NCBI GenBank assembly: GCA_030428885.1
Contig: JAUIEJ010000006.1
Coordinates: 248,001 to 312,000 of the forward strand
Length of the DNA: 64,000 nt
Direction of reading: 5' to 3'
Source: Gemmatimonadota bacterium
GTDB taxonomy: Bacteria > Gemmatimonadota > Gemmatimonadetes > Longimicrobiales > Gaopeijiaceae
Under the pieces are notes generated by a model. That model saw only the letters and a list, made by a program, of their open reading frames with translations, was not told where the DNA came from and did not search any database. The translations under genes were made by a program, and so were the position numbers. Positions 46,688-50,828 of the stretch are shown one piece after another; within the stretch, counting starts at the first letter, position 1; every line of letters begins with the position of its first letter.

Positions 46688-47218
46688 CTAACCGTCGTCC
46701 CGGGTCCGGGACGGATCGACTTCGTTGCGCGGGTCCAGCCCCGCCGCGGAGGCGGCGGAGCGGTCGGACTCGGGGGGCGCCGAACCGAATCCCGGGGGGC
46801 CCCCCCCTCCGAAGGGCATGCCCGGCGTCACGATGCCCACGCGGAGCGTGCCGTCTTCCTGCATGCGCCGGATGCGAGCGGTAGCCGCGTTGCGGATCCA
46901 GCGACGCGTGGTGGGAATCAGGAGCGAGAACCCCGCAACGTCGGTGAGGAGTCCCGGCGTGAGGAGGAAGGCGCCTCCCACGAGCACGGCCAGACCGTCC
47001 ATGAGGGGTCCCCCGGGCATCTGCCCCTGGGCGAGCTCCCGCTGGAAGGCCGCCAGGGTCCGCACTCCCTGGGAACGGGCCAGGGCCGCGCCCACCACGC
47101 CGGTCCCGAAGACCAGGAGAAGGGTGGGCCACAGACCGACCCACTGCCCGAGCTGGATGAGGAGCATCAGTTCCAGCAGGGGGACGACGACGAACAGAAG
47201 AGCGAGACGTGCGAACAT
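46688..47218 (-). CDS. FxsA-family membrane protein
   Basis: A 176-residue protein. The FxsA core spans about residues 1-125: FARLALLFVVVPLLELMLLI, QLGQWVGLWPTLLLVFGTG, VVGAALARSQG, then a third hydrophobic helix GLAVLVGGAFLLTPGLLTDV with the conserved LLTPG. A Gly/Pro-rich tail follows. FxsA is known from phage exclusion effects in E. coli, but its normal function is unclear. The ATG at 47218 starts exactly at the family N-terminus. It is divergent from ispH, with 89 bases between. Confidence 0.9.
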   Translation of the reverse strand: MFARLALLFVVVPLLELMLLIQLGQWVGLWPTLLLVFGTGVVGAALARSQGVRTLAAFQRELAQGQMPGGPLMDGLAVLVGGAFLLTPGLLTDVAGFSLLIPTTRRWIRNAATARIRRMQEDGTLRVGIVTPGMPFGGGGPPGFGSAPPESDRSAASAAGLDPRNEVDPSRTRDDG

Positions 47219-47307
47219 GGAGACAGGTACCCGAAACCCGGAACTCCGGGTCCGCCCCGGTGTCTCGGAGGGTTCCCGAGGCGCCCCTCCCACGACACCT
47301 TGGTGCC

Positions 47308-48546
47308 ATGGAACAGACCTATTTTCGGAAGGGCTTCGGACTCAAGGCCGAGGTGAAGCCCCTCATCGATGCCGAGTACCACTCCGAGATCGTCCACAGG
47401 ATCCGGGCCCGGGGCTACGAGGACCGCTTCGGCGACGTCACGGTGCGTCTCGCCCAGGAATTCGGCTTCTGCTACGGCGTGGATCGGGCCGTGGACTACG
47501 CCTACGAGACGGTCCACAAGTTTCCCGACCGCACCATCTACCTGGTGGGTGAGATCATCCACAATCCCCACGTGAACCGTCGCATGACGGAGATGGGGAT
47601 CGAGTTCATCTACCCCGACGACGAGGGCGCTTTCGACTTCGGCCACGTCACCGCCGACGACGTGGTGCTGCTCCCGGCGTTCGGGGTCACCATCGACGAC
47701 TTCGAACGCCTCAAGGGCATCGGCTGCATCCTGGTGGACACCACCTGCGGCTCGGTGCTCCACGTCTGGAAGCGGGTGGAGAGCTACGCCCGCGACGGCT
47801 TCACGGCCCTCATCCACGGCAAGTACAAGCACGAGGAATCCCGGGCCACCGCCTCCCAGGCGCTGAAGTACCCGGGAGGGAAGTACCTCATCGTGCGGGA
47901 CATGGGCGAGGCCATGCTGGTCTGCGACTTCATCGCCCGGCGGGAGGGGCACCTCTCCCGGGAGGCGTTCCTGGAGCGCTTCATGGACCGCTACAGCGAG
48001 GGCTTCGACCCGGATCGGGACCTGGATCGCATCGGGGTGGCCAACCAGACCACCATGCTGGCCAACGAGTCCCTGGCCATCGGGGGGAGAGTGCGTCAGG
48101 CCATGGTGGAGCGGTACGGCGAGGAAGCCGTGGACGCCCACTACCGCTCCTTCGGCACCATCTGCTCGGCCACCCAGGAGCGGCAGGACGCGGTGAAGGA
48201 GATGATGTCCGAGCCGCCCGATCTCATGGTGGTGATCGGAGGATACAATTCCTCCAACACGAACCACCTGGCCCACATGTGCCGGGAGTACACCACCACG
48301 TACCACGTCGAGGACGCGGCGTGCATCGACGTGGAGACCGGGACGATCCGCCACAAGCCCGAACTCGCCGCCGAACACCCCGAGTCCACCGAGACCGACT
48401 GGCTGCCGGAGGGCCCCTTCAGCCTGGGGATCACGGCGGGGGCGTCGACGCCCAACAACAAGATCGGCGAGGCCATCGTGCGGATCCTGAAGATCCGGGG
48501 CATCGAGCCGGTCCTCACCGGGCAGCCGGAGGGCGCGCCGGCGTGA
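47308..48546 (+). CDS. ispH: 4-Hydroxy-3-methylbut-2-enyl diphosphate reductase
   Basis: A 412-residue protein of the long IspH type found in cyanobacteria and plants, rather than the roughly 310-residue E. coli form. The three cluster Cys are in EFGFCYGVDRAVD, LVDTTCGSVLHVW and FGTICSATQERQD; substrate His residues are in LVGEIIHNPHVN and LIHGKYKHEESRA. It performs the last step of the MEP isoprenoid pathway, making IPP and DMAPP. The ATG at 47308 fits the family N-terminus. The TGA stop lies at the edge of the palindromic element that follows. Confidence 0.96.
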   Translation: MEQTYFRKGFGLKAEVKPLIDAEYHSEIVHRIRARGYEDRFGDVTVRLAQEFGFCYGVDRAVDYAYETVHKFPDRTIYLVGEIIHNPHVNRRMTEMGIEFIYPDDEGAFDFGHVTADDVVLLPAFGVTIDDFERLKGIGCILVDTTCGSVLHVWKRVESYARDGFTALIHGKYKHEESRATASQALKYPGGKYLIVRDMGEAMLVCDFIARREGHLSREAFLERFMDRYSEGFDPDRDLDRIGVANQTTMLANESLAIGGRVRQAMVERYGEEAVDAHYRSFGTICSATQERQDAVKEMMSEPPDLMVVIGGYNSSNTNHLAHMCREYTTTYHVEDAACIDVETGTIRHKPELAAEHPESTETDWLPEGPFSLGITAGASTPNNKIGEAIVRILKIRGIEPVLTGQPEGAPA

Positions 48547-48551
48547 TGGGC

Positions 48552-48669
48552 GGGTAGGTGGGAGGCGGCGGGGGTCCACCGTGGGACCCTCGCGAAGCCG
48601 ACGCTTCGCTCACGGCTGCGCCGTGGCCGTCTTCTCGAGGGTCCCACGGCGGACCCCCGCCTTCCGGGC
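48552..48669 (+). repeat. 118-bp structured repeat unit, copy 1
   Basis: The order is: 19-bp end repeat, 26-bp stem arms (48567-48592 with 48636-48661, one mismatch) enclosing a 43-base loop, then tail TTCCGGGC. The loop core, AGCCGACGCTTCGCT followed by CACGGCTGCGCCGTG and GCCGTCTT, is shared with copy 2 apart from one base. Inside the loop, CACGGC-TGC-GCCGTG and GCGAAGC-CGAC-GCTTCGC can form two smaller hairpins. Confidence 0.85.
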
Positions 48670-48762
48670 TGGATGCGATCACGCCGGCGCCCATCAGGGC
48701 GCGTCGGACCGGCGCGCTGCCCCGGCCCTCGTTTCCTTACGTGTCCTCTGGGGGCCCAACCG

Positions 48763-48779
48763 CCCCTCCCTCCCTCCCC
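48763..48779 (-). other. G-quadruplex motif in the centre of the element
   Basis: On the minus strand four G-runs are separated by single A bases (GGGG-A-GGG-A-GGG-A-GGGG), the loop length that gives very stable quadruplexes. A fifth G-run (GGGGG) lies a few bases upstream on the same strand. It falls in the unique segment between the two inverted repeat units. Confidence 0.7.
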
Positions 48780-48825
48780 TCCGGTCCCCCAGCGGTGCTC
48801 CGTGAGCGCCCGGGGAAGGCCGCCC

Positions 48826-48943
48826 GCCCGGAAGGCGCCGGGCCCCGCGCGGCATTGCCCGAAGACGGCCACGGCGCAGCCGTGAGCGTAGCGTCGGCTC
48901 CGGGCAATGCCGCGCGGGGCCCGGCGCCGCCTCCCACCTACCC
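48826..48943 (-). repeat. 118-bp structured repeat unit, copy 2 (inverted)
   Basis: Same length and order as copy 1 but on the opposite strand. Stem arms are 28 bp and perfect (48834-48861 with 48901-48928), enclosing a 39-base loop. The end repeat, loop core and TTCCGGGC tail match copy 1. Beyond the shared basal GGCG/CGCC pairs, the stem sequence is wholly different yet still fully self-complementary. Confidence 0.85.
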
Positions 48944-49408
48944 CCCGATGCCCTTCCCCAGGCGCTTCAGGAGATCCCGCGCCTCATCTTGATCGCCGGC
49001 ATCCAGCGTCCCCATGAGCTCGGCGATGTAGGCCGCGTGCCCCGGGAAGACCTCGGCCACCAGCGCCCGACCGGCCTCGGTGAGGTGGGCGGTGACCACC
49101 CGGCGGTCGGTCTCGCTCCGGCACCGCTCCACCAGGCCCTGGGCCTCGAGGCGGTCCATGACGTAGGTCACGTTGCCGCCCGTGACCAGGAGCTTGTCGG
49201 CGAGCTCGCCCAGGGGGAGAGGGCCCAGGTGATGGAGGGCCTCCAGGATCCCGAACTGGGGCGTGGTGAGGCCGTACTCCGCCACCTTGGTCGAGACCGC
49301 CCGGGCCACGGTGGAGTAGGCCCGTGCCAGGGCGATCCAGAGGCGCAGTGCCCGTTCCTCGTCGGCCGACCAGGTGCGTTCGGCCGGCTCGGTGCGGGTG
49401 TCGGTCAA
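48938..49408 (-). CDS. MarR-family transcriptional regulator
   Basis: A protein of about 156 residues with a winged helix-turn-helix. The core reads GLTTPQFGILEALHHLGPLP, LGELADKLLVTGGNVTYVMD (recognition helix) and RLEAQGLVERCRSETDRRVV, ending with a long dimerisation helix. The TTG at 49408 lies 4 bases after the lpdA stop and fits the start of the family domain; a GTG at 49462 is the alternative. The last residues (Gly-Gly) and the TAG stop come from the end repeat of the adjacent element, so the C-terminus may be altered. It is likely co-transcribed with lpdA; its targets are unknown. Confidence 0.88.
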   Translation of the reverse strand: MTDTRTEPAERTWSADEERALRLWIALARAYSTVARAVSTKVAEYGLTTPQFGILEALHHLGPLPLGELADKLLVTGGNVTYVMDRLEAQGLVERCRSETDRRVVTAHLTEAGRALVAEVFPGHAAYIAELMGTLDAGDQDEARDLLKRLGKGIGG

Positions 49409-49412
49409 CGGA

Positions 49413-50828
49413 TCAGATGTGGAGGGCCCGGCCCAGGGCCGACAGCGCGCCCTCACCCACACCCTCCGACAGGGTGGGATGGGGGTGGATGGCCCGCTCC
49501 ATCTCCTCGACGGTGGATTCGAGATGGCGTCCCACCACGAACTCGGCGATGAGTTCAGTGGCGTGGGGACCCACGATGTGGGCGCCCAGGATCTCCGAGT
49601 ACTTCGTATCGCGGATCACCTTGATGAAGCCCTCGGCGTGGCCCGAGGCCACGGCGCGGCCGATGCCGACCCACGGGAACTTGCCCACCTCGATGTCGTG
49701 GCCGGCCTCCTTGGCCTGCGCCTCGGTGAGCCCCACCGACGCCACCTCGGGATGGCAGTAGGTGCAGTTGGGCACGTTGTCGTAGTCCACCGTGTGGTGC
49801 CCCTGGCCCGCGATGTGCTCGACGCACACCACGCCCTCGTGCATGCCCTTGTGGGCCAGCAACTGACGGCCCGCCACGTCGCCGATGGCGTACACGCCGT
49901 CGACGTTGGTGCGCATCCGGGCGTCGACCTCGATGAAGCCGCGCTCGTCCTTCGCGACGCCGGCGGCCTCGAGTCCCACATCTTCGGAGTTGGGCACCCG
50001 GCCCACGGCCGACAGCACGTAGTCCACCTTCATCTCGTGGACCTCGCCCTTGGCGTCCTTGAAGGTGACCTGGACTCCGTCGTCCTGGATGTCCGCCGTC
50101 TCGAAGCGGGCGCCCGTGTGGATGTCCATGCCCCGCTTCTTGTAGGTGCGGGCCATGAAGGCCGAGACCTCTTCGTCTTCCAGGGGCAGGACCCGGTCCA
50201 GGGCCTCCACGATGGTGATCTTCGTGCCGTAGGCGTCGTAGACGTCGGCGAACTCCATGCCGATGGCGCCGGCGCCCACGATGAGGAGCGACTCCGGGGC
50301 CCGGGTCTGCATGAGGGCGCCCGTGGACGACCAGATGCGATCTTCGTCGATCTTGAGCGACGGCAGGTCCCGGGGACGGGAGCCGGTGGCCACGATGATG
50401 TGATCGCCTTCCAGCGTCGTCTTCTCGCCGTCGGCGTCCACTTCCACCCGGCCGCCGCCGAGGAGGCGGCCGTAGCCCTGGACGTGGGTGATCTTGTTCT
50501 TCTTGAACAGGCCGGCGATGCCCCGGCTCAGTTGATCGGCGACCTTCCGGCTCCGCTCCTGGGCCGGACCCAGATCGAACGTCATGTCGGACGCGTGGAT
50601 GCCGTGCTTCTCGGCCGACTTCATCTCGTTCACCAGAAACGCGCTGGTGAGCATGGCCTTGGTGGGAATGCACCCGATGTTCAGGCACACGCCGCCGAGC
50701 TTCTCGGCTTCGATGCAGGCCACGTTCATGCCGAGCTGGGTGGCCCGGATGGCGGCGATGTAGCCGCCGGGGCCGCTCCCCACGACGATGAGATCGAACC
50801 GGTTGTCGCCGCTGCCGTTCGCCGCCAC
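49413..50828 (-). CDS. lpdA: Dihydrolipoyl dehydrogenase (E3)
   Basis: A protein of about 471 residues. FAD-binding DLIVVGSGPGGYIAAIRA, redox disulfide GGVCLNIGCIPTKAML, NAD-binding LIVGAGAIGMEFADV, second FAD motif DGVYAIGDVAG, and the interface His-Glu in IHPHPTLSEG are all present. It re-oxidises the lipoyl arms of 2-oxoacid dehydrogenase complexes and reduces NAD+; the pdh operon lies about 5 kb away in this window. GTG at 50828 is chosen because GAGG sits 5 bases upstream; GTG at 50834 is equally in frame. A MarR gene follows after 4 bases. Confidence 0.96.
   Translation of the reverse strand: MAANGSGDNRFDLIVVGSGPGGYIAAIRATQLGMNVACIEAEKLGGVCLNIGCIPTKAMLTSAFLVNEMKSAEKHGIHASDMTFDLGPAQERSRKVADQLSRGIAGLFKKNKITHVQGYGRLLGGGRVEVDADGEKTTLEGDHIIVATGSRPRDLPSLKIDEDRIWSSTGALMQTRAPESLLIVGAGAIGMEFADVYDAYGTKITIVEALDRVLPLEDEEVSAFMARTYKKRGMDIHTGARFETADIQDDGVQVTFKDAKGEVHEMKVDYVLSAVGRVPNSEDVGLEAAGVAKDERGFIEVDARMRTNVDGVYAIGDVAGRQLLAHKGMHEGVVCVEHIAGQGHHTVDYDNVPNCTYCHPEVASVGLTEAQAKEAGHDIEVGKFPWVGIGRAVASGHAEGFIKVIRDTKYSEILGAHIVGPHATELIAEFVVGRHLESTVEEMERAIHPHPTLSEGVGEGALSALGRALHI

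Follow-up and report, generated by a model that had tools for sequence, protein, structure and literature searches.

Head-to-head hairpins in an ispH–marR gap belong to an apparently undescribed palindrome family of the Longimicrobiales

The gap between the convergent ispH-type and marR-type genes of a Gemmatimonadota genome (G000) holds two long hairpins that point at each other. They belong to a small hairpin family in the Longimicrobiales (Gemmatimonadota) that is apparently undescribed so far. The unit of the family is a single hairpin, in which a stem of free sequence, mostly 20–39 bp long, is capped by a conserved core of about 41 nt. Whereas dispersed palindromes are normally recognised by stem conservation, this family conserves the tip and lets the stem sequence vary freely while its pairing stays nearly perfect, and so separates a constraint on structure from a constraint on sequence. 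The best explanation, to which we give about even credence, is that the island consists of two new, REP-like DNA palindromes, placed head-to-head, that are kept and extended by snap-back copying.

In the window (the whole 64-kb stretch of DNA analysed here), the ispH-type gene (47209–48546, + strand; name from the first-pass annotation) lies upstream of hairpin B and has orthologues in 13 relatives, and the marR-type regulator gene (48938–49462, − strand; family by inspection only) lies upstream of hairpin A. The stretch from 48546 to 48950 carries both hairpins. Hairpin B (48567–48661, + strand) starts about 20 nt past the ispH stop, with the + strand as its mRNA-sense reading, and has a 31-bp stem (48567–48597 paired with 48631–48661) and a loop of 33 nt. 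Hairpin A (48834–48928, − strand) begins about 10 nt past the marR stop, is read in mRNA sense on the − strand, and has a perfect 28-bp stem (48834–48861 with 48901–48928) and a loop of 39 nt. On their better-folding strands, the conserved cores are located at 48594–48634 in B (− strand; GAAGACGGCCACGGCgcaGCCGTGAGCGAAGCGTCGGCTTC, with a GCGNAGC, or GNA, mini-hairpin) and at 48861–48901 in A (+ strand; mini-hairpin GCGTAGC). Hairpins A and B have in common these 41 nt or so at the tip and an outer flank containing GGGTAGGTGGGAGGC, found at 48551–48570 (+ strand) for B and at 48925–48943 (− strand) for A, but their stems of 28–31 bp are unrelated. They are the sole hairpins with a stem score of at least 16 across the window; in the 400 kb scanned of contig C2 of the same genome, only four hairpins reached this score, three ordinary ones of 16 bp and an imperfect one of 24 bp. 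The 405-nt stretch has a DNA folding z of −11. No sigma-70 promoter was found between A and B, and no terminator-like site in 48300–49300 by a scan limited to loops of 3–8 nt.

In total, 47 copies were found in ten genomes from three genera of one Longimicrobiales family, in which 10 of 121 genomes have copies, with about 1–11 detected per genome. The source genus (that of the window) has them in G000, the window genome, and in G001, G003 and G004, with none detected in G002 and G005. Genus g4 carries copies in G008 and G142–G144, and genus g6 in G010 and G099. A search of the genome and its relatives for further copies, proposed as a check when the island was first described, thus found several: those in the source genome are C and D and, by covariance models, F, F2, one behind dcd, one on contig C10 and one at 449.6 kb of C2. 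Across the copies the loop varies from 21 to 52 nt and has inner hairpins of its own. Sampling 395 genomes of the phylum brought in no additional genus, the exact core pattern searched in one genome per species (84,980 species) matched only MAGs of the Longimicrobiales/Gemmatimonadetes, and plasmid, phage and viral collections yielded no family member; these many-genome searches used strict prefilters and may miss remote members. Rfam gave no family above its gathering score, the low matches below it being mainly to miRNA-hairpin models, and nothing on such hairpins in Gemmatimonadota was found in the open-access literature.

Some MAG contigs (C19, C32 and C219 of G003, C358 of G004 and C80 of G008) start or stop inside a hairpin or no more than about 200 bp from one, and the hairpins explain some of the assembly breaks in these genomes. 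Copy numbers in the fragmented assemblies are therefore underestimates, and the orientation of the core there may be unreliable. Contigs that begin or end at hairpins are also what a fold-back artefact of assembly or sequencing might give, but the same core is present in genomes of separate records and in the single-contig genome G001, at orthologous sites, and such independent genomes make an artefact extremely unlikely.

The island had been described in the first-pass annotation as a palindromic element of two inverted 118-bp units with no coding frame, resembling a MITE with terminal inverted repeats (TIRs) and a GATG target duplication. The palindromic structure is real, being made up of 19-bp perfect ends (the terminal inverted repeat GGGTAGGTGGGAGGCGGCG) and two hairpins of about 95 bp that are inverted relative to each other. 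The 118-bp units hold up as far as the core and the outer flank go, while the stems of about 30 bp are unrelated, so that the units are not whole copies of each other. The ends of the element overlap coding sequence, namely the stop codon of ispH, which runs to 48546, and the final marR codons, and the marR stop TAG (48938–48940) lies inside the right ‘TIR’ and within the outer flank of A. In G000 and G001 this stop codon is part of a GGGTAGG adjoining the hairpin, and in G004 marR reads on for a few codons. The right GATG (48947–48950) corresponds to Gly-Ile codons of marR that relatives without hairpins in the gap also have, and the left GATG overlaps the stop codon of ispH. The two GATGs match by coincidence, and we reject both a target duplication and the MITE interpretation. 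What repeats is the single hairpin, and each ‘TIR’ is the outer flank of one such hairpin (the left one that of B).

Movement of the island as a MITE with 22-bp TIRs, by a transposase encoded elsewhere, is accordingly very improbable. It would suit the empty and occupied alleles, the several copies, the head-to-head pairs with common outer flanks and the two stem types of g4 that recur as pairs at several loci, but hairpins often occur singly, other copies do not keep the ‘TIR’ sequence, and the stems of the source genus differ from copy to copy. The family as a whole has neither the constant TIRs nor the target-site duplication of a MITE.

Of the 47 copies, 33 lie 3–84 nt past a stop codon and in one orientation, with the gene strand reading GCTNCGC (32 behind called genes, plus the dcd copy of G001, whose gene was uncalled). 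Some of the remaining copies are at contig ends, and true exceptions are few, such as a copy on C324 of G003 and the second copies of the G010 pairs. Paired units, which occur in the window, on C8 of G000, on C63, C80 and C88 of G008, and in G010, are arranged head-to-head. Copies in G010 are located at rpoC/rpsL, at tuf/rpsJ and behind secA (gene names by inspection of the translations), and the secA sites are occupied also in G099, G143 and G144. Behind a secA-like gene on C157 of G008, a short piece (L139, 3767–3804) resembles hairpin flank, and may be a decayed copy at the site occupied in G143, G144, G010 and G099.

The ispH–marR gap has two hairpins in G000 and one in G001, and is without a hairpin in G003, G005, G006, G010 and G099; G004 and G009 have ordinary hairpins of 15–16 bp instead (the G002 match ends before the gene end). 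With these orthologous gaps lacking the element, which had been named beforehand as a sign of mobility, and with multiple copies in the genome and its relatives, we accept that it comes and goes. The OmpA–PDH site, behind OmpA, is occupied in G000 and G001 and is a short gap without a hairpin in G003. At both of these sites the stems of G000 and G001 differ. The dcd site is occupied in G000, G001 and G003, where the three stems are unrelated but the inner hairpin of the core is shortened in the same way; it is empty in G005, G009, G010, G099 and the g4 genomes (the G004 contig stops within the gap, and part of G002 is masked there). Shared sites with unrelated stems, together with empty alleles, indicate that sites are inherited, that stems are replaced, and that sites are gained or lost. 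Since unconstrained intergenic sequence would be saturated at this protein divergence, the differing stems need no more than a pairing constraint. In G142, chimeric single hairpins, with the left half of one g4 stem type and the right half of the other, are found at loci orthologous to those on C80 and C5 of G008. The fixed orientation after stops, the conserved cap with free stems and the sites common to species were not foreseen by the first-pass annotation.

Most copies are thus placed where terminators also lie, past stops and often between convergent genes. A lineage-specific two-way terminator or insulator, in which an RNA hairpin at each 3′ end would stop or protect transcripts and the core would bind a termination or RNA-processing factor, is a possible explanation that we consider somewhat unlikely. 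It is favoured further by the ordinary hairpin that takes the place of the element in the ispH–marR gap of G004 and G009, and by the G010 copies at the rpoC/rpsL and tuf/rpsJ borders. The likeness to intrinsic bidirectional terminators (PMC5381666) extends to the hairpin behind the stop, the convergent genes and the compensatory changes in the stem; the differences are a much longer stem, a conserved structured tip, and the absence of a U-tract from the window copies (no T-run follows the stems of copies A–D). In several g4 copies the gene and the hairpin are separated by a T-rich stretch that resembles a terminator, which also speaks against a terminator role of the hairpin itself.

The stem pairs provide a further distinction. 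At 870 positions in 36 copies, 831 pairs are Watson–Crick, 6 are G–T and 15 are A–C on the mRNA strand, and 18 are other combinations. In intrinsic terminators of Bacillus cereus, G–U is the intermediate in 89.5% of resolved AU–GC switches (PMC5381666). Measured against that ratio, 6 G–T to 15 A–C gives a P of about 6e-11, while the departure from symmetry is weak (P 0.08). G–U is not preferred on the mRNA strand of the hairpin stems, opposite to what is known of terminators. G003 has two duplicates separated by 2.1 kb, between which six stem pairs differ, four of them with full compensation, and in g4 stem type L four adjacent pairs have been replaced as a block in both arms of the copy on C157. 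A guide or antisense role of the stems was considered and rejected, since a search found no significant match of the stems elsewhere in the genome.

The structure alignment covers 47 complete copies (49 rows with two partial ones), and the proposed structure combines the outer stem with P2, which is short, P3, which is an inner hairpin, and a GC mini-hairpin of two pairs. Covariation, first detected on 17 copies, sits in the outer stem and P3; in the 47 copies there are 254 compensatory cells, compared to 76 in shuffles, and the signal is destroyed by sliding the pairing. P2 is largely G–U pairs and the mini-hairpin is invariant, so both of these parts are less secure. Of the 47 rows, 46 contain GCGNAGC, as matched by a covariance model trained on copies that mostly have GCGAAGC. 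Sequences of the form d(GCGNAGC) are extraordinarily stable DNA mini-hairpins that follow a GNA rule (PMC4686876). By DNA energies the better fold belongs to the strand opposite the upstream mRNA in 45 of the 47 copies, and by RNA energies in 38. The copies are related, and neither these counts nor others over copies are independent trials. This antisense preference is another point against a terminator.

Beyond each window hairpin is an inverted copy of the adjoining gene end. A diverged copy of the ispH 3′ end, about 50 nt long (48678–48725, − strand; source 48495–48547), starts 16 nt beyond hairpin B and is identical over 13 bp at the stop codon. At 48805–48819 (+ strand), 14 nt beyond hairpin A, 15 nt of the marR 3′ end (source 48952–48966) are repeated in inverted form with one mismatch (14/15). 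Since the ends of both genes are coding sequence, copying ran from the gene to the distal side. Over 17 copies of the source genus, the two flanks of a hairpin resembled each other more than permuted flanks did (P 0.0017 for 60 nt, 0.013 for 90 nt; copy F was left out, as part of its outer stem would count as flank), with the signal driven by A and B and weak for C and G004. Genera g4 and g6 showed no such excess of own-flank over permuted-flank similarity, the permutation null in g4 being higher because g4 copies share flanks.

It is established for E. coli that template switching acts at quasipalindromes and makes them perfect (PMC7202029). Inverted gene-end copies are the trace that snap-back synthesis across a hairpin would be expected to leave, and the same copying could also account for the near-perfect stems and their turnover. 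The preferred reading is then that the hairpin acts as DNA, folded on the strand opposite the upstream mRNA, and that template switching at the hairpin during replication would both repair the stem and copy the adjoining gene end in inverted form. Through such snap-back copying the stems would turn over while their pairing persists. The cap would be kept by the binding of a putative structure-recognising factor, which may also spread the hairpin, and hairpins at gene ends may in addition form a two-way barrier to convergent transcription. We infer mobility of the core from the copy number and the empty sites. No trans-acting factor for the hairpins was found; reverse transcriptase is absent from G000–G005 and present in some g4 and g6 genomes. 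The quasipalindromes (PMC7202029) resemble the hairpins in that their arms are made more perfect, to which the present family adds the inverted flank copies, but they are isolated hot spots, whereas the hairpins are a dispersed family with a conserved cap.

A more far-reaching version, which we advance with low confidence, is that these hairpins form a ‘capped palindrome’ class. In this class a conserved, branched single-stranded DNA cap with a GNA mini-hairpin, having arrived at a gene end, would repeatedly template snap-back copying of neighbouring sequence, both the stem and the inverted gene end would be written from the host gene, and the cap would be propagated by a putative structure-recognising enzyme acting on the strand opposite the mRNA. 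The replaced stems at common sites and the inverted gene-end copies offer natural cases for the study of template switching in bacteria, and a hairpin-binding factor is predicted in these Gemmatimonadota.

Among known systems, REP/BIME sequences are alike in being short extragenic palindromes near gene 3′ ends and in convergent gaps, with head-to-head dimers and a patchy distribution between species. REP sequences are GTAG- or CGTC-tagged, lie near gene 3′ ends (many <20 bp) and form head-to-head dimers; their stems are 5–13 bp, their loops 2–20, and their families are defined by stem sequence (PMC3733652). The present hairpins, in contrast, have hypervariable stems that are mostly 20–39 bp and loops of 21–52, with conservation in the apical core instead, and number about 1–11 per genome compared to tens to thousands for REP. 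They also lack a constant GTAG/CGTC tag: by inspection, GTAGG precedes A, B, C and some G001 copies, and is absent from D, F, most G003 copies and most g4 copies. No REP-type Y1 (RAYT) transposase (PF01797) was detected in G000–G005, the six searched genomes of the source genus, or in G008, and of 12 genomes searched only G143 and G010 have PF01797. Membership in RAYT-type REP/BIME was therefore rejected on tag, stem size and RAYT, although the gene-3′-end location and the dimers agree. A proposal made for REP/BIME, a site at convergent gene ends where a chromosome-structure or replication protein (gyrase, a nucleoid protein or a fork barrier) recognises cruciform DNA, is improbable here. The convergent location, Watson–Crick pairing and head-to-head pairs are consistent with such a site, but so few copies per genome, and none detected in two members of the source genus, G002 and G005, argue against a general chromosomal need.

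Integron attC sites are found behind a gene in fixed orientation. They are palindromic hairpins with little stem conservation, of which the bottom strand folds and is recognised (PMC2727003), and the hairpin family is similar in its little-conserved stem sequence, its folding antisense strand and its oriented placement after genes. However, attC sites are conserved at the boundary boxes R′ and R″ and variable at the tip (PMC2727003), the reverse of the hairpin family, and R″/R′ boxes at the stem base were not seen in the hairpin flanks by inspection. The neighbours of attC are cassettes, while those of the hairpins include syntenic chromosomal genes. The family is filed as a new variant of extragenic palindromic repeat, outside every named family.

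Other repeats were observed close to the hairpins. A different intergenic repeat, GATTGGGGGCGC...GCGCCCCCAAATCGACATTTC, occurs several times near hairpins in G000, including between F and F2 on C8 (L073, about 1850–2290) and behind dcd (L181). In G001, an array of tandem units, each about 237 bp long (L081, C1:1532977–1534024), lies just 3′ of the dcd hairpin. Half-hairpins in tandem copies stand beside a complete hairpin behind OmpA in G001 (L072/L076) and on C71 of G003 (L053), and might have been left by slipped or repeated template switching.
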